Source: Candidatus Fermentibacter danicus (GTDB lineage: Bacteria; Fermentibacterota; Fermentibacteria; Fermentibacterales; Fermentibacteraceae). From it: a stretch of 64,000 nucleotides of DNA. Both the position numbers and the translations under genes were made by a program. Under the pieces are notes generated by a model. That model ran no database searches and was not told the DNA's origin. It saw only the letters and a program-made list of their open reading frames with translations. Shown in pieces: positions 24,754 through 36,220 of this stretch. Positions within the stretch are counted from its first letter, which is position 1. Every line of letters starts with the position of its first letter. Location of the stretch: assembly GCA_001618605.1 (NCBI GenBank), contig LKHC01000105.1, forward strand, positions 75,250-139,249, read 5' to 3'.

Positions 24754-25356
24754 ATGACAACGACGACATCAGCGATGCAGGAAGGTCAGGGAGACCGCTT
24801 CGAGGTCGAGGTTCTGCAGTACCTCGACGGTCTCTACGGGTACGCCATACACCTCACCCGCAATCCCGAGGACGCTTCCGATCTCGTCCAGGAGACATAC
24901 GCGAGAGCCTTCAAGGCGCGCTCCCAGTATCGTCTGGGAACAAACGCCCGCGCCTGGCTGTTCGCTATTCTCAGGAACACGTTCCTGAACGACCGCAGGT
25001 CCGCCTGCCGCTCGCCCCGCACCGTCTCGTGCGAATGGCTCGACGAGCTCGCAGGGGAGGACCAGGACGGATTCGAGTCCCCCAGATCCCCGGACCCTCA
25101 GAAATCCTTCATCGCCGGGCTGATGCGGGAGGACATCGAAAAGGCGCTGAACGAGCTTCCGGAGGAGTTCAGGAGTGCAGTGGTCCTCTGCGACGTGGAG
25201 GAGATGTCCTACTCGGAGATCTCCCAGATACTGGGCATTCCGATCGGTACCGTGAGGTCGAGAATCCACAGGGGTCGTGCGATTCTCAGGAAACTTCTGG
25301 TAGAGTGGCAGTCATCGATGGAGGGGTCTGGCGGTGAGGTGCTCAAGGGAGGCTAG
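24754..25356 (+). CDS. ECF-family RNA polymerase sigma factor
   Basis: A 200-residue sigma70-family protein with only regions 2 and 4: region 2 LYGYAIHLTRNPEDASDLVQ followed by ETYARAF, then ARAWLFAILRNTFLND (about residue 67), and region 4 LNELPEEFRSAVVLCDVEEMSYSEISQILGIP with IGTVRSRIHRGRAILRK. This is the SigE/RpoE-like ECF architecture. It overlaps the following zinc anti-sigma gene by 23 bases and heads a continuous plus-strand run to 36220. A second in-frame ATG at 24775 has no ribosome site. Confidence 0.95.
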   Translation: MTTTTSAMQEGQGDRFEVEVLQYLDGLYGYAIHLTRNPEDASDLVQETYARAFKARSQYRLGTNARAWLFAILRNTFLNDRRSACRSPRTVSCEWLDELAGEDQDGFESPRSPDPQKSFIAGLMREDIEKALNELPEEFRSAVVLCDVEEMSYSEISQILGIPIGTVRSRIHRGRAILRKLLVEWQSSMEGSGGEVLKGG

Positions 25357-25561
25357 CAATATCCAGGATTACATCTCGGGCGAGCTGTCCGAAGAAGGCC
25401 GGAGAAGACTCGAAAACCATCTGTCCGGCTGTGAATCCTGCAGAACCTGTGTCGACGGGATGCTCCTGTTCAGGTCCAGAATCAGGGATCTGATGAGGGT
25501 TTCCGCTCCCCCCGACCTGAGGGACCGCATCGCGATGATCAAGACCGGGAGCGGGCGCTAA
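25334..25561 (+). CDS. Zinc anti-sigma factor (zf-HC2/ZAS)
   Basis: A 75-residue protein with the zinc anti-sigma signature HLSGCESC (H-x3-C-x2-C) near residue 29 after an upstream helix QDYISGELSEEGRRRLE; Cys3 could be the fourth ligand. It has no membrane segment, so it should be a cytoplasmic, possibly redox-sensing partner of the preceding sigma factor. GTG at 25334 has GGAGGGG 7 bases upstream. Confidence 0.88.
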   Translation: MRCSREASNIQDYISGELSEEGRRRLENHLSGCESCRTCVDGMLLFRSRIRDLMRVSAPPDLRDRIAMIKTGSGR

Positions 25562-25564
25562 CCG

Positions 25565-25963
25565 TTGCCTCCGGGTTCGAGGTTCCGGTACGCGGCCATT
25601 GCCGCATGCATACTGTCGATACTGCTCGTGCCGGTGCTCTTCCGGCGTCCGGCCACCACGTACTCCACTCTTGCCGAGATCGGTCCGATAGCGTCGGACC
25701 TTGCCCCCTGGGGCGTCCCGGCCGCCGACGGAACGGTCCGCGGCGAATGGACCTTCTTCCCTTACAGGATCGCCACAGTCGTCATGCCTGACTCCTCTCT
25801 CCTGGCCGTGGTATCCGCCCCCGTGCCCCTCGAGCCGGGGCCTCCCGTGAATGGCGCCGTCTACAGGCGCCTCGGAGGTTCCGTCTATGCGCTGGCCCTT
25901 CCCGGCCCCGGGGGAGGCTCGGAGGCGGCGCTCCTTCTCTCCCGCGACGGAGGAGGGCCATGA
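25565..25963 (+). CDS. Small membrane-anchored protein, unknown function
   Basis: A 132-residue protein that I cannot assign. A TTG start (25565) precedes PPGSRFR and one helix (YAAIAACILSILLVPVLF); the remaining 100 residues are extracytoplasmic, with short beta-like stretches (GEWTFFPYRIATVVM, SVYALALPG). It follows the zinc anti-sigma gene by 3 bases and overlaps the next gene as ATGA. The position suggests a membrane sensor or accessory of the sigma/anti-sigma pair. Confidence 0.65.
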   Translation: MPPGSRFRYAAIAACILSILLVPVLFRRPATTYSTLAEIGPIASDLAPWGVPAADGTVRGEWTFFPYRIATVVMPDSSLLAVVSAPVPLEPGPPVNGAVYRRLGGSVYALALPGPGGGSEAALLLSRDGGGP

Positions 25964-26448
25964 CGGGAAGCCGCCTCCGCGGAACGGCAGCGGCCGTGCT
26001 TTCCTCCGTCCTTCTCTCCCTTGTTCCTGTCTCCTGCGGAGGCGGGGAAGGCCAGGTGGACGAGGGGCCCGCGCCGATATCCCTGCCGGGCCGGCTCTCC
26101 GGTCCGGATGGAGCAGCCCTGGACGTCGGCCTCGACAGCGCCGTTCTGATCTACTCATGGATACCGCTGGACGGGTTCGCGGCGATCGATGCCGATCTCG
26201 CCGGGCTGCCGGCGCTCCAGGACTCCGGCCTGAGGCTCCTCCCGGTCCAGTTTTCGGTCGAGGACAGGAACATGGCTCAGGCCCACGTGAACGGCCTGGG
26301 CATCTTCCTCCCCGTCTATCTGGCCGATTCCTGTCTCGCTGCATCCATCCCCTTCGACGTCATGCCTGTCGCCGTCCTGTACCGCAGGGGCGCCCCGCCG
26401 GCCGTCGAATCCGGCTTCGGCTGCGCGGGCAGACTCCTCTCCAGATGA
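25960..26448 (+). CDS. Thioredoxin-fold-like lipoprotein or secreted protein
   Basis: A 162-residue protein with a hydrophobic leader (LRGTAAAVLSSVLLSLVPVSC) ending in a cysteine that may be lipidated, though proline at -3 is unusual for a lipobox. The mature part resembles a TlpA-like domain (ISLPGRLSGPDGAALDVG, VLIYSWIP, LYRRGAPP) but lacks the CxxC pair; the expected site reads SWIPLDG. A redox role is therefore doubtful. It is coupled on both sides by ATGA overlaps. Confidence 0.6.
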   Translation: MTGSRLRGTAAAVLSSVLLSLVPVSCGGGEGQVDEGPAPISLPGRLSGPDGAALDVGLDSAVLIYSWIPLDGFAAIDADLAGLPALQDSGLRLLPVQFSVEDRNMAQAHVNGLGIFLPVYLADSCLAASIPFDVMPVAVLYRRGAPPAVESGFGCAGRLLSR

Positions 26449-27188
26449 CCCGGGGCGACATCTACTTCGCGGGCGACGTACACCTGGTCCCCGAACCCCT
26501 GCCGCACCCCGGCCGGGAGGCCTTCCTGGAATTCCTCGGGCGGCTTGCCGGCGAAGAGCCCGGCGAACTCTGGCTGACCGGCGACCTCTTCGATTTCTGG
26601 TTCGAGTACAGGAGCGCCATGCCCGCGGGATACGACCGCGCGCTGAAAGCCCTGTCCGTACTCGCCGAAAAGGGCTGGAGAACGGTCTTCCTCCCGGGCA
26701 ACCACGACTGGTGGGTCGGCGGGCACTTCGAGAGGGCGACCGGCGTCAGGATAGACAGATCCCCCTTCGTCAGGACCGAGTGCTTCGGCATCAGAACCGT
26801 GATCGCCCACGGTGACGGCCTCGGAAGGGGAGACATAGGATACAGGCTCATCCGGCCCGTGCTCAGGGCGCGCCTGTCGAGCCTCCTCTTCCGGATGCTG
26901 CATCCGGACATCGGAGCGTCGATCGCCGGGCTGGCCTCGGGCACCAGCCGCAGAATCCTCCGCAGGGAAATCCTCGAGATCCCGCCCGGCCTCTCCGAAT
27001 GGGTCTCGGACATGGTCGCGGGGGGGGCGGGCGCCGTGGTGACGAGCCACATACACACCGCGAGGATCGCGCCGGCAGGCCCGGGCGTGCACATCTCCAC
27101 GGGGGACTGGATCACGACCTTCACCTGCGCGAGGATCGGCCCCGGGGGGCCGGAACTCCTGAACTTCCCTCCCGGGGGTTCTCGTTGA
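26445..27188 (+). CDS. UDP-2,3-diacylglucosamine pyrophosphohydrolase-like (LpxH family)
   Basis: A 247-residue calcineurin-like metallophosphoesterase with all metal ligands: GDVHL, TGDLFDFWFEY, LPGNHDWW, AHGDG and SHIHT (usually GHTH). The GDLFDFWFE block and length fit LpxH, which makes lipid X in lipid A synthesis at the inner membrane. ATG at 26445 overlaps the previous stop. It sits between the sigma-factor group and the glycosyltransferase group, tying the operon to the envelope. Confidence 0.85.
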   Translation: MTRGDIYFAGDVHLVPEPLPHPGREAFLEFLGRLAGEEPGELWLTGDLFDFWFEYRSAMPAGYDRALKALSVLAEKGWRTVFLPGNHDWWVGGHFERATGVRIDRSPFVRTECFGIRTVIAHGDGLGRGDIGYRLIRPVLRARLSSLLFRMLHPDIGASIAGLASGTSRRILRREILEIPPGLSEWVSDMVAGGAGAVVTSHIHTARIAPAGPGVHISTGDWITTFTCARIGPGGPELLNFPPGGSR

Positions 27189-27265
27189 CGGCGCCGCGCC
27201 CGGTCTCGATCTTCCAGTCCGGCACGGACGGCTTCATCCCGCCGGAAGGGGACGGAACGGCATGA
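27185..27265 (+). CDS. Possible 26-residue ORF
   Basis: A TTG at 27185 overlaps the LpxH stop (TTGA) and its own stop overlaps the GT2 start (ATGA), giving a 26-residue frame with no recognisable features. The double coupling is striking in a window rich in such overlaps. It may equally be a chance open frame in the 73-base spacer. No dedicated ribosome site is seen. Confidence 0.2.
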   Translation: MTAPRPVSIFQSGTDGFIPPEGDGTA

Positions 27266-28206
27266 CCGACATCTCCGTGGTCGTCCCGGCCAGGGACGAG
27301 GAGAAAAGCATCGCCGCCCTCGTGGAGGAGACGGCGCAGGCTCTCGGATCGCTGCGCTGGGAGATGGTCATAGTGGACGACGGCAGCACGGACGGAACCT
27401 GGGAGGAGATACGCAGGGCCTCCACCGTCCATCCCGTCACGGGCATACGCTTCGGGCGGAATCAGGGCAAGGCGGCCGCGCTCTCGGCCGGTTTCGCCGC
27501 CGCCTCCGGCCGGCTGATCGCCACCATGGACGCCGACCTGCAGGACGATCCCGCCGAGATCCCCGCCCTTTCCGCCGAACTGGAGGAACGGGGTCTCGAC
27601 CTTGTCAGCGGATGGAAGCGGAACAGGCTCGACCCGCTGTCCAAGCGGCTTCCCTCGAAGTTCTTCAACTCCGTGGTCCGGATGACGACCGGGCTCCCCC
27701 TGCACGATTTCAACTGCGGCCTGAAGCTGTACAGGGGCGAGGCTGCCCGACGGCTGGACCTGTACGGTGAGATGCACAGGTACACTCCTGTGCTCGTCTC
27801 TCAGCTCGGCTACCGGGTGGGCGAGAAGGCGGTGAACCACAGGCCGCGCAGGTTCGGCAGGAGCAAGTACGGCCTCGCACGCTTCTTCAGGGGTTATGCG
27901 GACCTTCTGACCGTGCTGTTCCTGCATCGCTACTCCTTCAGGCCTCTGCACTTCTTCGGCGGCATAGGCACCACGCTGTTCGCCGGCGGGCTCCTCGTCT
28001 CCGCCTATCTGTCCGTGCTGTGGCTGGGAGGGGAGTCGATCGGAAGACGCCCTCTGCTCCTGCTGGGAGTGTTCCTGATGATGATAGGCTTCCAGTTCGT
28101 CTCGCTCGGGCTGCTCGGGGAGATGGTGCTCAGGTTCATGCCCGGGAAGAAGCCCTTCAACATCGTGGAAACGATCCTCCCCGGGACCGCAGGGCCCCCG
28201 GACTGA
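27262..28206 (+). CDS. Family 2 glycosyltransferase (DPM1/ArnC-like)
   Basis: A 314-residue inverting glycosyltransferase. Residues 1-225 form the GT-A domain: VVPARDEEKS, IVDDGSTDGTW, the metal motif in TMDADLQDDP, and FNCGLKLYR. Two helices follow (about 233-300). This layout matches enzymes that load a sugar onto polyprenyl phosphate at the cytoplasmic membrane face. It begins the seven-gene envelope glycan block; the ribosome site is GGAAGGGGA. Confidence 0.9.
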   Translation: MTDISVVVPARDEEKSIAALVEETAQALGSLRWEMVIVDDGSTDGTWEEIRRASTVHPVTGIRFGRNQGKAAALSAGFAAASGRLIATMDADLQDDPAEIPALSAELEERGLDLVSGWKRNRLDPLSKRLPSKFFNSVVRMTTGLPLHDFNCGLKLYRGEAARRLDLYGEMHRYTPVLVSQLGYRVGEKAVNHRPRRFGRSKYGLARFFRGYADLLTVLFLHRYSFRPLHFFGGIGTTLFAGGLLVSAYLSVLWLGGESIGRRPLLLLGVFLMMIGFQFVSLGLLGEMVLRFMPGKKPFNIVETILPGTAGPPD

Positions 28207-29318
28207 TGCGGCTCGCCCTCGCGGGCCCATTTCCCCCGTGGCGCGGGGGGATCGCACAGTTCTCGTTGAGGCTCGAGACGGCCCTGTCGGCTATCTGCGA
28301 AACCCGTCGCGTCACTTATTCGTACCTGTATCCTCCGATCCTCTTCCCTGGAACCTCGCAGCTCGATCCGGGGGCTACCGGCTCCCGCGAAGACCACAAG
28401 GCGGCCGACGCCTTCCTGCATTCCTGCAACCCCCTCGCCTGGCCCGGCTCCGCCCGGAGGATCGCCGCGATGTCGCCCGACTTCACGGTGGCGCAGTACT
28501 GGCACCCGTTCTTCGCCCCGGCGCTCATGCACGGCCTGCCCCGGAGCGTCCGCCGGGCGGCCGTGTGCCATAACGTCATGCCCCACGAGTCGTTCCCTCT
28601 CGCCGGATCGCTCGCGCGGCGCTTCCTCAGGAGCTGCGGGCTCCTGGTGGTCCACAGCGCGAGCGACGAGGAGGAGGCCGTCAGAATCGCACCCGGCTCC
28701 AGGATACTCCGCCTCTTCCACCCGATCTATGACCAGTACGTCGGACCCGAACGCTCCGTGAAGGAAGCGAGAGCGGAACTCGGGCTCGATCCGGACAGGC
28801 GGACAGTGCTCTTCTTCGGCCTGATCAGGCCCTACAAGGGGCTCGACGACCTGCTCGAAGCGGTTGCGATGCTCCCGGACGGAATCGACCTGCTCGTGGC
28901 CGGCGAATGCTACTCCGGCAGGGAGCGCCTTCTCGAACGGCTGGGCCGGGAGGATCTGTCCGGAAGGGTCAGGTGGATCGAAGGATTCATACCGGACTCC
29001 CGGGTGGACGCCGTCTTCAGGTCGGCCGACGCCGTGGCCCTGCCCTACCGGAGCGCGACCCAGAGCGGGGTTGCACAGATCGCGCTGTCCTTCCGCAAGC
29101 CCCTGGTGCTCACCCGCACGGGAGGGCTGCCCGAACTGGTGGAGGAGGGCAGGACGGGCTTCCTGGCGGAGCCCTGCGACCCCGCCGGACTTGCATCCGC
29201 CGTGGAGAAGGCCCTGTCGCTGGCCGGGGACGCATCGTCGCATACGGCCATCGCCGGCCTCGCCCGCCGCTTCAGTTGGGAGACCTATGCTTCTTCGCTG
29301 CTGGAGGCCCTGGGGTGA
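28206..29318 (+). CDS. Family 4 glycosyltransferase
   Basis: A 370-residue GT-B enzyme. Seen are the N-terminal LALAGPFPPWRGGIAQFSL, FFGLIRPYKGLDDLLEA near residue 204, EGFIPDSRVDAVFRSAD, and the donor-site TRTGGLPELVEEGRTGFL. Its ATG overlaps the GT2 stop (TGATG) and its stop overlaps the epimerase start (GTGA), so translation is coupled. It probably adds a sugar in the cytoplasm to the lipid-linked intermediate. Confidence 0.9.
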   Translation: MRLALAGPFPPWRGGIAQFSLRLETALSAICETRRVTYSYLYPPILFPGTSQLDPGATGSREDHKAADAFLHSCNPLAWPGSARRIAAMSPDFTVAQYWHPFFAPALMHGLPRSVRRAAVCHNVMPHESFPLAGSLARRFLRSCGLLVVHSASDEEEAVRIAPGSRILRLFHPIYDQYVGPERSVKEARAELGLDPDRRTVLFFGLIRPYKGLDDLLEAVAMLPDGIDLLVAGECYSGRERLLERLGREDLSGRVRWIEGFIPDSRVDAVFRSADAVALPYRSATQSGVAQIALSFRKPLVLTRTGGLPELVEEGRTGFLAEPCDPAGLASAVEKALSLAGDASSHTAIAGLARRFSWETYASSLLEALG

Positions 29319-30205
29319 GAGTGTTCCTGGTCGGAGCCGGAGGGTTCATCGGCGGGGAGGCGGCCCGCGCCCTGGAAGCCGCAGGACACGAGGTGCTGCC
29401 CCACCGCAGGTCCGACTCCGGGGATCTCCTCCCCTCTTCGGTCCCGGAGAGCTTCGACGTCGCCGTCAACGCGGCCGGCAGGCTGGGCGTCCCGGGGATC
29501 TCCAGAGATGAGCTGAGGGCGGCCAACACCGGTCTTCCCGCCATGCTGGGCCACGAATGCGCTTCGCGGGGCGTCCCCATGATCCATCTCAGCACTCCGG
29601 GAGTGGCCGGCCTGATCGGTGGCTCCCGGGAGGACTCCCCTCCGGCCCCATGGGGCGCATACGAGGAATCGAAGGCGGAAGCCGAGAGCATCCTGCAATC
29701 CGTTCTGCCGCCGGAACTACTCACCATCCTCCGGCCGGACTTCGTATACGGCCCCGGAGACCGCCACAAGCTGAGCCTCTTCAGGCAGGTCCGCAGGGGC
29801 TGGTTCCCGCTGGTGGGCCTCGGTGGCGCGAAACTCAGGCCGACCTTCGCCGGCGATGTCTCCCGGGCGGTGCTCGCCTCCCTGCCGGGAGGCATTCTGG
29901 GGCCGGGCTTATGGAACATAGGCGGGCCGGAGGTCGTCAGCGTGGCGGAACTGGTAAGGGCCGTCGCCGCGGCCGAAGGGGTCAGGCTCGCGACCATACC
30001 CGTCCCCAGGGTAATCTTCGGAATCGCCCTCGCTCTCGGCCCGCTCGCTCCGCGGCAGCTCTCCCGGAGCCGCCTCCAGCTCTTCGGGAAGGATCACTGG
30101 GTCGACATCGCCAGGGCCTCCGACGCAGGCTTCCACCCGGAGACCGGGCTTGCGGACGGCCTCTCCAGGACGGTCTCCTGGTACAAGTCGGAGGGGCTGC
30201 TCTGA
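29315..30205 (+). CDS. NAD-dependent epimerase/dehydratase
   Basis: A 296-residue extended SDR protein with N-terminal Rossmann motif FLVGAGGFIGGEAAR. The catalytic region reads STPGVAGL...GAYEESKAEAE, in which a tyrosine-x3-lysine (YEESK) is present, followed by ILRPDFVYGPGD. It would reshape a nucleotide sugar for the neighbouring glycosyltransferases. GTG at 29315 overlaps the GT4 stop; a second GTG two codons later is possible. Confidence 0.88.
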   Translation: MRVFLVGAGGFIGGEAARALEAAGHEVLPHRRSDSGDLLPSSVPESFDVAVNAAGRLGVPGISRDELRAANTGLPAMLGHECASRGVPMIHLSTPGVAGLIGGSREDSPPAPWGAYEESKAEAESILQSVLPPELLTILRPDFVYGPGDRHKLSLFRQVRRGWFPLVGLGGAKLRPTFAGDVSRAVLASLPGGILGPGLWNIGGPEVVSVAELVRAVAAAEGVRLATIPVPRVIFGIALALGPLAPRQLSRSRLQLFGKDHWVDIARASDAGFHPETGLADGLSRTVSWYKSEGLL

Positions 30206-31140
30206 AACCCGCCTCCTGGAAGAGGCTTTTCGGCGTCCTGTCCGCCGTGCTGCTGGTCCTGGCCGTGGCGATCGCGGTCCGGCAGATCGCGCTTCGCTGG
30301 TCGGAGATAGGCGGCTCCTTCAGAAACGCCGGATGGGATCCGGACCCCGTCCGGCTGACGGTCTCCTCACTTCTTCTCTTCTGCGGACTCGCCATCAATC
30401 CTGCCGGCTGGATGCTGATCTCCAGGGATCTGGGCGCATCAACCCGCTGCAGCCGGCTTGCCGGAGCCTGGTTCGCCAGCCAGCTCGGCAGGTACATCCC
30501 CGGAAAGATCTGGCTCTTCGCCGGAAGGATAGGTTTCCTGAGGTCGGAGGGCCTCTCGCTCTCCAGGGCGGCTGCCGCCTCCGTCTGGGAGGTGCTCGTG
30601 AGCTTCGCCTCGGTCGGCCTGGTGGCCCTTCCGGCGGTCCTGCTGGCGGGCGGCGATCTTCCCGCCACACTCAGGACGGCTTCCGCGGCGGGGTCCGCCG
30701 CGCTGGTTCTGCTGCCCCTTCTCAGTCCGGTACAGAGGCTGGCGTTCAGGTTGAAGGGCGTGGAGGGGTTCACCGGCGTCAGGCTGTCCACTTCCCTCAG
30801 GGCCGTGGGGGCGTATTCAGCCGCCTGGACCATGAGAGGGGTGTCGATCTGGCTCTGGTTGGAGGGCCTCGGGCTCAGCACGAGGGGGTTGTGGTCGGCG
30901 GTCGCCGCCGCGCCTCTCTCCTGGCTCGCCGGGTATATTGTCGTGTTCGTTCCCGGCGGCATTGGAGTCCGCGAGGCCGCCACCGCCGCAATGTGCGACG
31001 GAGGCTCTGGTATTGCGCCCGTCATGGCGGCCGTATTCGGACAGACTCTGCTCATGGCGGTCTTCGAGGTCGTCACGGCCCTCGTCGCCTTCGGGCGCGA
31101 GGCTTCGAAGGGAGATCCGATTGGCCGGAAAGCCCTCTGA
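30202..31140 (+). CDS. UPF0104 / lysylphosphatidylglycerol synthase TM-domain protein
   Basis: A 312-residue membrane protein of the UPF0104 (LPG_synthase_TM, flippase-like) family: about eight helices, the conserved LGRYIPGKIWLFAGRIGFLR near residue 95, and VFVPGGIGVREA near 250. The only start that fits is CTG at 30202, overlapping the epimerase stop as CTGA with GGAGG 7 bases upstream; no ATG, GTG or TTG occurs near. It is likely a lipid or lipid-linked sugar translocator or anchor for this pathway, and a paralogue of the N-terminal half of the radical SAM fusion two genes on. Confidence 0.87.
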   Translation: MKPASWKRLFGVLSAVLLVLAVAIAVRQIALRWSEIGGSFRNAGWDPDPVRLTVSSLLLFCGLAINPAGWMLISRDLGASTRCSRLAGAWFASQLGRYIPGKIWLFAGRIGFLRSEGLSLSRAAAASVWEVLVSFASVGLVALPAVLLAGGDLPATLRTASAAGSAALVLLPLLSPVQRLAFRLKGVEGFTGVRLSTSLRAVGAYSAAWTMRGVSIWLWLEGLGLSTRGLWSAVAAAPLSWLAGYIVVFVPGGIGVREAATAAMCDGGSGIAPVMAAVFGQTLLMAVFEVVTALVAFGREASKGDPIGRKAL

Positions 31141-33412
31141 CCGCTGCCTGGTCCTGCTGCTGGCCGCAGGGCTGGCTCTCGTCATCTACTGGCCGGTCTT
31201 CGTTTCGAACCGCCTCCCGGGCGGGGAGCTGAGCGACACCGTCCATCAGGGATACCCCTTCCTGTCCTACACCGCCTCGAGCCTTGCCGAGGGCCGTATT
31301 CCGCACTGGAACCCGTACATCTACTGCGGCATCCCATTCTTCTCCTCCTTCTCGGCGCCGGTGTTCTATCCCGTCCGCGGGCTACTTCTGCTGGCAGCCG
31401 GCCCGGAGGCGTCGGTGCGGTTCATCTGGCCTGTCCAGGCCTTCATCGCCGCGCTGTCGGCCTGGCTCTTCCTCGGATCCCTGGGAGTCTCCAGAGGCGG
31501 CAGGATGGTCGGAACGATCGCCTTCGCGGCAGGCGCCTGGGCCAACACCCTCTTCTACGCCGGACACACCAGCAAGATGGTGTCCTGGAGCTTTCTGCCG
31601 CTGCTCCTCTACGCCTGCGAGAGATGGTGGGGCACGCGGAGGGCGTGGTTCCTGTTCGTCGGAGGTTTCTGTCTCGGGATGCAGGCCCTCTCCAGCCATC
31701 CCCAGATGCTCCTCTACAGCGTCCTGGCGGCGACCGTCTGGCTGGCCTGGAGGTTCCTGGAGCGCCCCGGCGTGAGGAATGCGCTTGTCGCGGCCTCGGG
31801 CGTCGCCGCGATGACCCTGCTCGGGATGGGGCTCGGCGCAGTCCAGATGCTCCCGGGCTACAACTTTTCCAGAACCTCGACCCGGGGCGAGGATCTTTCG
31901 CTCTCGCAATCCGCAAGCTATTCGATGCCTCCCGAGGAGACCCTCGCGATGGCGTTCCCGCACCTGTTCGGATACCGGCACGGGTTCCCCGACAGCGAGG
32001 CGGGCGGCGGGCCCGTGTACTGGGGCAGGCTCGGCCTGCGGCTGTCCAGCGAGTTCACCGGAGTTTCGGTCCTGCTCCTGGCGGCGGTCGCCCTGCTGTC
32101 CCGCAGGACGCACAGGGGCATGGCGCTGGGTGCGGTGGCCCTGCTGGGCCTGCTGGTGTCCTGGGGGGGATACACCCCCCTTTACGGCATCCTCTACGAC
32201 ATCGTTCCGGTCTTCAGGAAGCTGAGGGCTCCGCACATGGCGGCGTTCCTCACGACTTCCGGAATATCGCTTCTCGCCGGCCCCGGCTTCGACTCCGTCG
32301 TATCCGGCGTGCGGGCCGGTCGCTGCTGGAAACCCATCGCCGCATGGGGCGCCCTCTGTCTCGTTCTGTTCGCCTTCTGCAGGCCCATCCTCTCCTCTGC
32401 CCAGGCCGGATGGTGGCGCAGGGCGGGAGCCTCTCCGTCAGCTTTCCCGGAGCTGGTCGACAGGAGGGTCGATCTGGCCTCCGGCGACTTCCTCAGAGCC
32501 GCTGCCGTCTCGGCATGCATGGCCGTCATAGTCTTCGCCGTCTCCCGGAAGAGGATCGGCCCGGGCTCCGCATGCCTCATGGTCTCGGCCGTCGCGGCCT
32601 TCGAACTCGTGCCCCTGGACAGGGACTTCCAGGTCTATCTGCCCCAGACGAGGATGGAAGACCTCCACCCGGAGCCGGAAGGGCTGCGGGAGGCGGTGGG
32701 CGGAGGGCGCATCTTCCCCGGTGGAAACCAGTTCGTCCCGTTCGGGATACGCTCCGTGACCGGCTATCATGCCGCCAGGACGCAGGCGGTCGACGCCATG
32801 CTGGCGGGCATCTCCTCCGGAGGTTTCACGGATGTCCGCTCCACTGCATTCACGGTGCTCGTCGACGGCGGCATGGTCGCCACCTACGACGATCTGGCCC
32901 GCAGGATCGCCTCCGACTCGACGGCCCCGGCCCTCCCGCCGGAGCTGACGGTTCCCATGCCGAGAGCCTTCATGCCCGGGGCGTGGGTTCAGGAGGGCGA
33001 CCCTTCGGCCTTCGGACTTCCGCCGGAGGTGGTCAGCACGGTATCCGGAGATCCGGGCATCCCTCAACCGGTCGGCGGCCGCGGCTCTGCGGAGATAGCG
33101 CGTGACGCGCCCGAACTGGTGGAGATCGCCGTGGAATCAGGCGAGCCCGGCCTTCTGGTCCTCGCCGACACCTGGCATCCACGCTGGGCTGTCCGGGTCG
33201 ACGGCGCGGAAACCCCGCTCCTGCGGGCCAACGGCTGGATGAGGGCCGTCGCCGTCCCGGCGGGCAGACATACCGTATGTTTTTCCTACGACACCTCCGA
33301 CTTCTCCACCGGACTTCTCCTGTCTGCGGTCTCCGCCTTCCTGACGACCGTCGCGGCAGCCTTCGAGCTGGCGTCCAGGAGGCGCAGGAAGTCTGGCGCC
33401 AGTGCGGCATGA
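31121..33412 (+). CDS. YfhO-like polytopic membrane protein (GT-C fold)
   Basis: A 763-residue integral membrane protein with about 12-13 helices and a C-terminal extracytoplasmic beta domain. Visible family traits: GGELSDTVHQGYPFLSYTAS with the luminal acidic motif after the first helix, HWNPYIYCGIPFF, and near the end VLADTWHPRWAVRVDG. YfhO proteins are linked to lipid-linked glycosyl transfer onto teichoic acids or proteins. TTG at 31121 has AAGGGAG 7 bases upstream and lies within the end of the UPF0104 gene. Confidence 0.88.
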   Translation: MAGKPSDRCLVLLLAAGLALVIYWPVFVSNRLPGGELSDTVHQGYPFLSYTASSLAEGRIPHWNPYIYCGIPFFSSFSAPVFYPVRGLLLLAAGPEASVRFIWPVQAFIAALSAWLFLGSLGVSRGGRMVGTIAFAAGAWANTLFYAGHTSKMVSWSFLPLLLYACERWWGTRRAWFLFVGGFCLGMQALSSHPQMLLYSVLAATVWLAWRFLERPGVRNALVAASGVAAMTLLGMGLGAVQMLPGYNFSRTSTRGEDLSLSQSASYSMPPEETLAMAFPHLFGYRHGFPDSEAGGGPVYWGRLGLRLSSEFTGVSVLLLAAVALLSRRTHRGMALGAVALLGLLVSWGGYTPLYGILYDIVPVFRKLRAPHMAAFLTTSGISLLAGPGFDSVVSGVRAGRCWKPIAAWGALCLVLFAFCRPILSSAQAGWWRRAGASPSAFPELVDRRVDLASGDFLRAAAVSACMAVIVFAVSRKRIGPGSACLMVSAVAAFELVPLDRDFQVYLPQTRMEDLHPEPEGLREAVGGGRIFPGGNQFVPFGIRSVTGYHAARTQAVDAMLAGISSGGFTDVRSTAFTVLVDGGMVATYDDLARRIASDSTAPALPPELTVPMPRAFMPGAWVQEGDPSAFGLPPEVVSTVSGDPGIPQPVGGRGSAEIARDAPELVEIAVESGEPGLLVLADTWHPRWAVRVDGAETPLLRANGWMRAVAVPAGRHTVCFSYDTSDFSTGLLLSAVSAFLTTVAAAFELASRRRRKSGASAA

Positions 33413-35504
33413 CACCCTCAACCGTCTGGGAGCGTGGTTCGGCTTTGCGCTTCTGGCGGGGGGAATCCTCTGGTTCATCTTCGGCCTGTGGCCGTCCTGG
33501 AAGGGGGATGTCGGCACGCTGGTCCCGCGCCTGGACTTCTCCGGACGGTGGCCGCTGCTCGTCTCCTCGGTTCTCTCGGCCCTCGCCGGCCTCTACTTCG
33601 CCCCGGCCCCCTGGGTCAGGCTGATAGGCGCATCAGGCGCCGGAGTTCCGCGGACCGCGCTCCGCAGGAACTGGTTCATCACCCAGACAGGCTCATACAT
33701 CCCCGGGCGTCTCTGGATGTTCCTCGGCAGGCTCGCCTTCCTCCGGTCGAGGGGAATGGGAACCGGCATCTCGCTGGTGTCGATGGCCTTCGAGAACATC
33801 TACCTGATGATCTCCGCCTGCCTGCTCTCGCTTGCGGTGATCCCGTTCTCCGGGGGAGCCGGGCTGCCTCCGGAGACCAGAGCCTACATCGCGGCGGCCT
33901 CCGCCGTCGTTCTGCTGGCCCTGGCGGCGCCGGGCATAAGAACCTTCCTGATCGAGAGGATGACCGGCCGCTTCGGCAGGGCCGCCGGCAGGTTGAGCAT
34001 CCCCCGGATCGGAGTCATGGACGGTCTCTACATGATTTCTACGGGGATGCTGTCCTGGGCTCTGCGGGGTTTCTCGCTCTTCCTGTGGTTCGACTTCGCC
34101 GGCCTGGGGGCCGGAGACGGGTTCGCAATGCTCGCCGCCTGTATAATCGTGATGCCGGTTTCGTGGCTCGTATCCCTGGTCTGGGTGTTCGTTCCCGGCG
34201 GGATAGGGGTGAGGGAGTCCTTCCAGGGCCTTGTCCTGGCTCCCTTTGTGGGCGGCATCGCGGTGGCGGTCACCGTGTCCCTGTGTCACAGGCTTCTCCT
34301 GATGCTCGTAGAGGCGTTCTACGCCCTGGAGGCTGCATTGTCCGAAGCATTCTCGCGCAGGCTGTCACAGATTCCGAAGATGGCGGGGCTGGCCGTGTCC
34401 GCCTTCTTCGCGCTTCCGGCCCGGTACGGCCTGTGCAGGCCGCCCGCCCCGATCAACGTCACGTTCTCCGTCACGCGAAGGTGCCAGTCCAGATGCGGCA
34501 CCTGCATGATCTGGAAGGCCCCGGAGCTGCCGGAACTGGATCTCGCCGCGATCGAAGCCATGTTCAGGTCGATCGGGAGAACCTTCTTCTTCAACATTTC
34601 CGGAGGCGAGCCATACCTCCGGAGCGACCTCCCCGGGATCGTGCGCCTGGCATGCCGGCACCTCCGCCCGGCCGTCATCCATGTACCCACGAACGCACTT
34701 ATGCCCGGCAGGATCGAGGAGACGACGCGGGAGATGCTCGAGATCATCCGCCGCGAGTCTCCGGGCACGGCCCTGACCGTGAAGCCGTCATTCGACGGAA
34801 TCGGGGCGAGGCATGACGAGATAAGAGGCGTGCCGGGCAACTTCGACAGGCTCCTCGACACGCTGGGAAGGCTCACAGCCCTCAGGAGGGAGTACCCCGG
34901 CCTCCATGTCGGAGTGGGGACCGTCATATCGAAGTTCAACTCCGGAGAGCTGCCGGAGGTGATCGAGTACGCCAGAGGCCTCGGAGTGGACACCTACATC
35001 AACGAGATCGCAGAGGAGCGGGAGGAGTTCTTCAACGTCGGCTCCAGGATCACGCCCGATCCCGCCACGTACGGGAACATAATGGAGGGCTTCCGCCGCG
35101 CGACGGTCGAAAAGATCAGGCACGCCCGGCTGCTCGGAAGGATCACCTCCGGGCTCAGGCTGGTGTACTACGACCTGGTTGTGAGGATCCTCCGCGAGAA
35201 GCGCCAGGTGATCCCCTGCTACGCCGGACTGCTCAACGTCCACATCAATGCGGACGGAGCCGTATGGCCCTGCGCCATCAGGGCCTATGCCGCCGAGATG
35301 GGCAGGGTCGGCCCGGAAGGCGATTTCGCTTCCGCATGGAACTCCCGGCGCGCCAGGGAGATTCGTCGTTCCATCCGCAGGGGCGAGTGCTGGTGTCCGC
35401 TGGCCAACCAGGCATACTCCAACATCCTGATGCACCCGCCCTCGCTGCTGAGGGCGGTCGTCGCAGGCCTCCGCAGATCAGGCGGGGGGAGGAGGAGGGA
35501 ATGA
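33402..35504 (+). CDS. UPF0104 membrane domain fused to radical SAM/SPASM enzyme
   Basis: One 700-residue frame with two modules. Residues 1-320 are an eight-helix UPF0104 domain (ITQTGSYIPGRLWMFLGRLA near 88, VFVPGGIGVRES near 265). Residues 345-560 are a radical SAM barrel with cluster motif C-QSR-C-GT-C near residue 363 and NISGGEP. The C-terminal part carries SPASM-like cysteines (CYAGLLNVHINADG, AVWPCAIR, GECWC). SPASM domains hold extra Fe-S clusters and usually modify peptides. The fusion would tether the chemistry to the membrane face. GTG at 33402 lies inside the end of the YfhO gene; the ribosome site is weak. I see no frameshift. Confidence 0.9.
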   Translation: MRHDTLNRLGAWFGFALLAGGILWFIFGLWPSWKGDVGTLVPRLDFSGRWPLLVSSVLSALAGLYFAPAPWVRLIGASGAGVPRTALRRNWFITQTGSYIPGRLWMFLGRLAFLRSRGMGTGISLVSMAFENIYLMISACLLSLAVIPFSGGAGLPPETRAYIAAASAVVLLALAAPGIRTFLIERMTGRFGRAAGRLSIPRIGVMDGLYMISTGMLSWALRGFSLFLWFDFAGLGAGDGFAMLAACIIVMPVSWLVSLVWVFVPGGIGVRESFQGLVLAPFVGGIAVAVTVSLCHRLLLMLVEAFYALEAALSEAFSRRLSQIPKMAGLAVSAFFALPARYGLCRPPAPINVTFSVTRRCQSRCGTCMIWKAPELPELDLAAIEAMFRSIGRTFFFNISGGEPYLRSDLPGIVRLACRHLRPAVIHVPTNALMPGRIEETTREMLEIIRRESPGTALTVKPSFDGIGARHDEIRGVPGNFDRLLDTLGRLTALRREYPGLHVGVGTVISKFNSGELPEVIEYARGLGVDTYINEIAEEREEFFNVGSRITPDPATYGNIMEGFRRATVEKIRHARLLGRITSGLRLVYYDLVVRILREKRQVIPCYAGLLNVHINADGAVWPCAIRAYAAEMGRVGPEGDFASAWNSRRAREIRRSIRRGECWCPLANQAYSNILMHPPSLLRAVVAGLRRSGGGRRRE

Positions 35505-36220
35505 AGCTGCTCAGGATGACGACGCACGAGTTCGTCAAGCTGGACGTGAGCTTGTGCTTCTGGCCGGTCGGAACCGTCGAGGCTCATGATGCAGGCCCCC
35601 TGGGGACCGACGTCATAGCCCCCGAGAAGCTGGCGGAGGATCTGGCGCCCGAATTCGGCGCCGTCCTGCTCCCGACCCTGCCCTTCGGGCTGGTCAACTC
35701 CCTGTCGGGGTATCCAGGCGGCATGTGGCTGCAGAGCGAGACCTACAGATCGATGATCGTGGAGCTGCTCGACTCGCTGTCCATCTCCGGCGTCGAGCGG
35801 GTGGTCGTTTTCAACGGCCACGGAGGCAACTCAAAAACCCTTTCGGAGGCCCTCTCCGAAGTCTGGAAGTCCTGCGGCGTGAAGACCGCACTGGTGGACT
35901 GGTGGGTGGTGGGGGACGACATCGCCCGCGAGGTGTTCGGCTCGTCTGCCGGACACGGCGGTTCAGACGAGCTGGCCCTCGTCCATGCCGCCATCCCGGA
36001 CTTCGTGCCGGAATGGGACGGCTCGGGCTCCTGGCTCGACCGCGAGGGAGTCAGGACTTACCCGGTGCCGGTCTGCTCCATCCGCTACTCCGACGGCGAG
36101 GCGAAGCCGTTCTCCGCAGAGGCGGCATCCGTCTACTACGGGAGGCTCAGGGACAGGGTCCGCGGGATCGTCTCCGACATCCTCGAAGGGTGGAGCGCGG
36201 GCGGCAGGCCTGACGAGTGA
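35501..36220 (+). CDS. Creatininase-family metal hydrolase
   Basis: A 239-residue amidohydrolase of the creatininase/MftE family. Metal and active-site blocks: FWPVGTVEAHDAGPLGTDVI (E, H, D), FNGHGGNSK near residue 107, and AGHGGSDELALVHA. The family includes creatininase, FAPy deformylase and MftE, the peptidase of mycofactocin maturation that acts beside a radical SAM enzyme. ATG at 35501 overlaps the radical SAM stop (ATGA) with GGAGGAGGGA upstream. It is the last gene of the run. Confidence 0.9.
   Translation: MKLLRMTTHEFVKLDVSLCFWPVGTVEAHDAGPLGTDVIAPEKLAEDLAPEFGAVLLPTLPFGLVNSLSGYPGGMWLQSETYRSMIVELLDSLSISGVERVVVFNGHGGNSKTLSEALSEVWKSCGVKTALVDWWVVGDDIAREVFGSSAGHGGSDELALVHAAIPDFVPEWDGSGSWLDREGVRTYPVPVCSIRYSDGEAKPFSAEAASVYYGRLRDRVRGIVSDILEGWSAGGRPDE

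Follow-up and report, generated by a model that had tools for sequence, protein, structure and literature searches.

The window, a 64,000-nt stretch of a contig from Candidatus Fermentibacter danicus, encodes a protein of 700 aa in which an N-terminal UPF0104 membrane domain is fused to a C-terminal radical SAM (rSAM) enzyme, and this fusion is real. The architecture looks undescribed, both domains singly being of known kinds. In line with the sequence-only reading, no described enzyme with this layout was found in the open-access full text searched, and searches of such text for radical SAM enzymes together with MprF, a flippase or undecaprenyl phosphate yielded nothing relevant. We propose that the protein works at the membrane as a tailoring enzyme whose substrate is a glycolipid or a lipid-linked sugar, and assign a probability of about 0.45 to the whole model, including the flipping of the product and its transfer by a GT-C enzyme.

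Frame and reality of the fusion gene

The fusion gene and its parts are located as follows:
33402..35504, + strand: UPF0104-radical SAM fusion gene, 700 aa (open frame, Pfam, conserved in the phylum; GTG start, uncertain)
33402..34361, + strand: UPF0104/MprF-flippase-like domain, approximately residues 1-320, eight TM helices (PF03706, AF2/Foldseek, motifs, loop charges)
34362..34442, + strand: linker helix, approximately residues 321-347 (helix 323-341 in the AF2 model)
34443..35216, + strand: radical SAM barrel, residues 348-605, with CxxxCxxC at C361/C365/C368 (PF04055, invariant Cys, AF2 model)
35217..35474, + strand: twitch-like auxiliary-cluster domain, residues 606-691, C606-x17-C624-x38-C663-x-C665 (PF13186, four conserved Cys)

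The sequence-only reading had described a single 700-residue frame joining a membrane domain to a radical SAM enzyme, and had named a sequencing error or missed stop near base 34400 as what would speak against it. The 700 codons are open from the GTG at 33402 to the stop at 35504 and contain no internal stop; the junction of the two halves lies at approximately residues 320-350, near base 34440. The nearest public record of the fusion protein stems from Candidatus Fermentibacteria RA.bin127 (89% identity over residues 2-699), and the same fused frame is present in an independent MAG with 90% identity. Both halves are under purifying selection: against the nearest relative, the flippase part has a dN/dS of 0.10 and the rSAM part one of 0.08. 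Since there is no internal stop, the frame recurs in an independent MAG, copies occur phylum-wide and dN/dS is low, the fusion is not a sequencing or assembly error, and a frameshift or missed stop between the domains was rejected. It is thus extremely improbable that two separate genes were joined artificially: the sole point in favour is that the rSAM part occurs unfused in two Fermentibacterota genomes, and against it stand 33 independent Fermentibacterota copies of full length as well as the open frame and the selection on both halves.

The two halves of the protein

The N-terminal half matches PF03706 (LPG_synthase_TM, UPF0104) over residues 14-300 with 27.0 bits (E 3.9e-6), or with 29.2 bits (E 8e-7) if this half is searched alone, the score of the fused domain being below the curated cut-off of 33.4 bits. 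An AF2 model of this half, based on an alignment of 27 sequences, reached a pLDDT of 84.7 and a pTM of 0.81. When it was compared to the PDB with Foldseek, MprF structures took the first five places (E values of 1.9e-3 to 4.1e-3 at a probability of 1.00), whereas the next match had an E value of 0.12. The motifs GxYxPG(K/R)xW and PGGIGVRE are conserved in the fused domain and are common to the separate UPF0104 proteins of the operon; the fused domain thereby combines the predicted MprF-flippase fold with the PGxxW and PGGxGxRE motifs. In an eight-helix model the loops carry 20 K/R on the assumed cytoplasmic side versus 2 on the opposite side. From this positive-inside topology, the rSAM half is predicted to be located in the cytoplasm, the compartment that offers SAM and reductant. 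The eight-helix UPF0104 domain and the membrane tethering put forward by the sequence-only reading are thus supported by the PF03706 match, the MprF-like predicted fold and the topology.

MprF, the lysyl/alanyl-phosphatidylglycerol synthase-flippase, likewise consists of an N-terminal UPF0104-type flippase domain, to which the predicted fold matches, and a cytoplasmic lipid-modifying enzyme, but its catalytic half is an aminoacyl transferase and not a radical SAM enzyme. No DUF2156/LPG_synthase_C (aminoacyl-PG synthase) domain was found in the fusion protein by Pfam. A C-terminal UPF0104 domain is present in AglD, an archaeal glycosyltransferase (PMC5898192), which resembles the fusion in that UPF0104 is joined to a glycan enzyme but differs in its reversed domain order and in its partner, a glycosyltransferase.

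The C-terminal half matches PF04055 above the cut-off over residues 356-523 (E 9.9e-10). C361, C365 and C368 as well as GGEP (401-404) are invariant in 28 fused proteins, and the features of the radical SAM superfamily, CxxxCxxC, a partial TIM barrel and a GGE motif, are all present, so that the previously noted barrel with its C-x3-C-x2-C cluster is borne out. The four Cys that follow the barrel (C606, C624, C663, C665) are likewise invariant in 28 fused proteins, and the same four recur in standalone homologues of Cloacimonadota and Planctomycetota, i.e., in three phyla together with Fermentibacterota. The SPASM pattern, which provides two auxiliary clusters, comprises seven conserved Cys including CX2CX5CX3C. 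The twitch domain is a truncated form of the SPASM domain. Classical SPASM enzymes bind a pair of auxiliary clusters and twitch enzymes a single one, which in BtrN is ligated by four Cys (PMC9012708). Although the Pfam SPASM model PF13186 matched residues 606-663 (26.6 bits versus a cut-off of 21.5), a classical two-cluster SPASM domain was rejected, as there are four auxiliary Cys and not seven. From the layout C-x17-C-x38-C-x-C, a one-cluster, twitch-like domain such as that of BtrN is expected. Of the "SPASM-like" cysteines that had been proposed, the auxiliary Cys and the Pfam match therefore stand, whereas a strict SPASM assignment does not.

None of the named NCBIfam radical SAM families came near its cut-off, the best being TIGR03961 with 44.8 bits versus 306. 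A fold search with the AF2 model of the full protein (pLDDT 87, pTM 0.72) retrieved DesII, SkfB, BlsE (TMt 0.62), SuiB, anSME and BtrN (TMt 0.59), among others; sequence identity in the alignments to BtrN, BlsE and DesII is low (14-18%). The structure prediction, which the sequence-only reading had suggested, thus pairs an MprF-like half with one that matches radical SAM enzymes. Since peptide/protein enzymes (SkfB, SuiB, anSME) rank as high as sugar/aminocyclitol enzymes (DesII, BlsE, BtrN), the substrate is not decided by the fold alone. BtrN shares the four-Cys auxiliary-cluster layout with the fusion, and BtrN, BlsE and DesII are similar by fold; all three differ from it in being soluble, in acting on small molecules and in having no membrane domain.

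Occurrence and gene context

In a survey of 42 Fermentibacterota genomes the gene was found in 40, of which 38 have the fused layout, 33 at full length and five in pieces because a contig ends within the gene or the frame is broken (G004, G023, G026, G034, G041). The rSAM part occurs without the UPF0104 half in the other two, G005 and G013, and the gene was not detected in G018 and G020, which are 66-67% complete. The rSAM tree places the unfused G013 copy within fused ones, the enclosing set having a support of 96/96 and the inner set one of 93/96, so that the UPF0104 domain was most likely lost there; G005 is a deep-branching genome. In a tree, the fused UPF0104 domains fall into one subfamily and the separate UPF0104 proteins of the operon into another, with a single change (SH-aLRT 92). 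Between genera, the fused UPF0104 domain shows about 37-42% identity versus 62-66% for the rSAM part and thus evolves faster. At L007:2993-4209, the YfhO-like gene and the intact fusion gene are separated by an additional, broken copy of the flippase domain that a methyltransferase-like gene interrupts. In another Fermentibacterota genome (L089:7004-8086), a distant rSAM paralogue with 38.6% identity over residues 349-532 overlaps a GT2-like gene, which suggests a broader family of one-cluster radical SAM enzymes associated with glycosyltransferases.

In the window, the fusion gene is accompanied by the following genes:
24754..25561, + strand: ECF-type sigma factor and short Cys-containing protein (likely anti-sigma), head of the operon (Sigma70_r2/r4; conserved position, clusters 17 and 22)
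25960..26448, + strand: small putative lipoprotein (no Pfam match; position conserved, cluster 16/30 in relatives)
26445..27188, + strand: LpxH-like metallophosphoesterase (PF00149; LpxH model E 6e-18, below the equivalog cut-off)
27262..28206, + strand: GT2 polyprenyl-phosphate glycosyltransferase, ArnC/PgfS/AglJ-like (PF00535 E 8e-29)
28206..29318, + strand: GT4 glycosyltransferase, start approximate (PF13692/PF00534)
29318..30205, + strand: NAD-dependent sugar epimerase/dehydratase, start approximate (PF01370 E 5e-11)
30202..31140, + strand: separate UPF0104 membrane protein, putative flippase, start uncertain (PF03706 E 3.4e-9, above the cut-off)
31118..33412, + strand: YfhO-like GT-C membrane glycosyltransferase, start uncertain, overlaps the fusion gene (sub-threshold YfhO match)
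35501..36220, + strand: creatininase-family amidohydrolase, overlaps the fusion gene (PF02633 E 1.6e-34)

The order from the ECF sigma factor, the short likely anti-sigma protein and the small lipoprotein through the LpxH-like, GT2, GT4, epimerase, separate UPF0104 and YfhO-like GT-C genes to the fusion is conserved across Fermentibacterota; the search for the same fusion with conserved neighbours in relatives, another suggestion of the sequence-only reading, was hence successful. The best NCBIfam match of the GT2 protein is ArnC (E 1.1e-46, below the equivalog cut-off), followed by PgfS at E 6e-27, and with it the membrane-linked polyprenyl-phosphate GT2 that characterizes GT-A/flippase/GT-C systems is present. 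The separate UPF0104 protein is 36% identical to the fused domain. For the YfhO-like protein, the match of the window protein to the YfhO family is weak and sub-threshold, whereby 8 of 12 family members match (best E 1.6e-6); its gene lies directly upstream of the fusion in 30 of 31 loci and overlaps it in most. A GtrA-type flippase was not found in the organism's own genome and is present in only 2 of the 42 Fermentibacterota genomes, which leaves the flippase slot to UPF0104 in the remaining 40. LpxC is present in the genome, so that lipid A is likely made by the organism and would be a plausible acceptor.

Systems composed of a GT-A polyprenyl-phosphate transferase, a flippase and a GT-C transferase are known from envelope glycosylation (PMC8035078). 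Like CsbB/GtcA/YfhO and the Arn pathway, the window has a polyprenyl-phosphate GT2 and a putative GT-C enzyme in one operon; as differences, UPF0104 would take the place of the GtrA/ArnEF flippase, a radical SAM step would be added, and lipid A is likely made by the organism.

Beyond Fermentibacterota, the survey was limited: the GTDB collection was scanned with exact peptides, and two phyla were searched with profiles, Cloacimonadota with the rSAM half only. The fusion was absent from 392 planctomycete genomes in a search with the full-length profile and, judged by frame length, from the cloacimonad matches to the rSAM profile. An open frame of 683 aa at an rSAM gene of the cloacimonad genome G460 was considered as a fusion and rejected, as it proved to be a standalone protein of 362 aa with an open upstream frame. 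A standalone rSAM homologue with 38-41% identity is present in 112 of 125 Cloacimonadota genomes, directly after a GT2 gene and near an LpxH-like gene. Two homologues were found in Planctomycetota (L035, L100), each following a Wzx-type flippase (PF01943 in L100), and both loci contain homologues of the window's GT4 (E 1e-58 and 5e-64) and epimerase. Among the evidence on function, the strongest is that this rSAM family is coupled to glycan enzymes and, in two phyla, also to a flippase by different means.

Several observations concern the homologues themselves. Both planctomycete clusters encode a DUF362 protein (L035:6213-7352, L100:2400-3560), which is a possible electron donor; in the L035 protein, Pfam recognizes ferredoxin-type 4Fe-4S domains. 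A cloacimonad rSAM paralogue (L098:3173-5122) is C-terminally fused to FAD-/NAD-binding oxidoreductase domains resembling ferredoxin/flavodoxin reductases, which may supply it with electrons. In Cloacimonadota, two conserved and uncharacterized proteins are encoded after the rSAM gene (L042:11016-13134), of which one is a membrane protein carrying a PQQ-type propeller and the other contains DUF4159. Amphipathic membrane-docking helices at the ends of the standalone proteins were considered and rejected, since the hydrophobic moments were no better than those of shuffles.

Proposed function and alternative readings

ArnD acts on undecaprenyl-phosphate-linked Ara4FN. UPF0104 proteins are related to the MprF flippase, and in archaea as well as in the gpgSDF system they probably flip glycolipids (PMC5898192, PMC12713373). 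In gpgSDF/hexSDF, a GT4 enzyme makes the glycolipid, GpgD deacetylates GlcNAc-PG and the flippase is predicted to be a UPF0104 protein (PMC12713373); the window operon resembles these systems in its GT4, in a proposed tailoring step on a lipid-borne sugar and in UPF0104 as predicted flippase, but there the tailoring is carried out by a separate deacetylase. By analogy with GpgD and ArnD, we infer that the rSAM half would tailor a lipid-borne sugar. The ArnC-like GT2 (and the GT4) would make a polyprenyl-phosphate sugar or glycolipid at the cytoplasmic face of the membrane, where the rSAM half would be held and would abstract an H atom from the sugar. The reaction could be an oxidation, an epimerization or similar, aided by the four-Cys auxiliary cluster, whereby a BtrN-like two-electron oxidation or an epimerization is weakly favoured. 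The MprF-type half would then move the product to the outer face, and the YfhO-like GT-C enzyme would transfer it in the periplasm to an acceptor of the envelope, for example lipid A.

What argues for this tailoring model is that the fusion is kept phylum-wide, that the N-terminal half has an MprF-like predicted fold and the rSAM half a predicted cytoplasmic location, that the operon order parallels known GT-A/flippase/GT-C systems and GtrA is missing from 40 of 42 genomes, that unfused homologues lie beside a flippase or GT2, that sugar-acting enzymes are among the closest rSAM folds, and that lipid A is likely made. The gene context in three phyla, the MprF-like fold and the positive-inside topology likewise favour the lipid-linked or membrane-bound substrate suggested by the sequence-only reading. 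Points against the model are the fold matches to peptide enzymes, the sub-cut-off PF03706 score, the sub-threshold YfhO match and the dispensability of the UPF0104 half: as this half is absent in G005 and G013, flipping by the fused domain is not indispensable.

A further point against the model is that the second UPF0104 protein of the operon could be the actual flippase. Its gene, two genes upstream of the fusion, together with the two unfused rSAM genes and the faster evolution of the fused domain, would fit a fused half that is a mere anchor or scaffold, with the rSAM half modifying a lipid-linked sugar or membrane glycolipid that the separate protein flips. We regard this as a possible but rather unlikely reading, as the retention of the PGxxW and PGGIGVRE motifs and a dN/dS of 0.10 exceed the needs of an anchor.

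It is improbable that the rSAM half modifies a lipid (acyl chain, polyprenol or glycerol ether) instead of a sugar, as tetraether lipid synthases or HpnH do. The lipid flippase fold of the N-terminal half and weak matches to the Tes and HpnH models and to the GDGT-MAS structure point in this direction; however, these matches are far below the cut-offs, the conserved partners are all glycan enzymes, and sugar and aminocyclitol enzymes are among the top fold matches.

Still less probable is a membrane-tethered peptide maturase of the RiPP type, as SPASM homology would imply; the sequence-only reading had noted that SPASM enzymes usually modify peptides. It would agree with the above-cut-off PF13186 match, with weak matches to MftC and SkfB and with the adjacent creatininase-family gene, which belongs to the MftE-like superfamily. 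However, the auxiliary Cys number four and not seven, no known peptide-maturase family was reached, and neither a precursor gene in the tightly packed operon nor a recognition domain was seen. The creatininase-family protein matches creatininase better than MftE, both below the cut-offs; its gene is absent from most neighbourhoods and was not seen beside the fusion in other Fermentibacterota genera. In addition, the homologues in three phyla are located with glycan genes. RiPP maturation was rejected because the packed operon showed no precursor gene and the creatininase neighbour is not conserved.

Going beyond the tailoring model as such, the protein might represent a new class of bifunctional radical SAM synthase-flippase, in which radical chemistry on a lipid-linked sugar is coupled in one chain to export, yielding a so far undescribed sugar of the envelope that would belong to the core of the whole phylum, and of which Cloacimonadota and Planctomycetota would have uncoupled versions of the enzyme; we put this forward tentatively, with the odds clearly against it. 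If true, it would extend the synthase-flippase principle of the MprF and AglD fusions to radical chemistry. The fusion would point to a novel modified sugar in the envelope of Fermentibacterota, and the operon offers a short list of candidate substrates, which makes the proposal testable. Since the standalone homologue is near-universal in Cloacimonadota, one biochemical answer would annotate an as yet uncharacterized core gene in two phyla.
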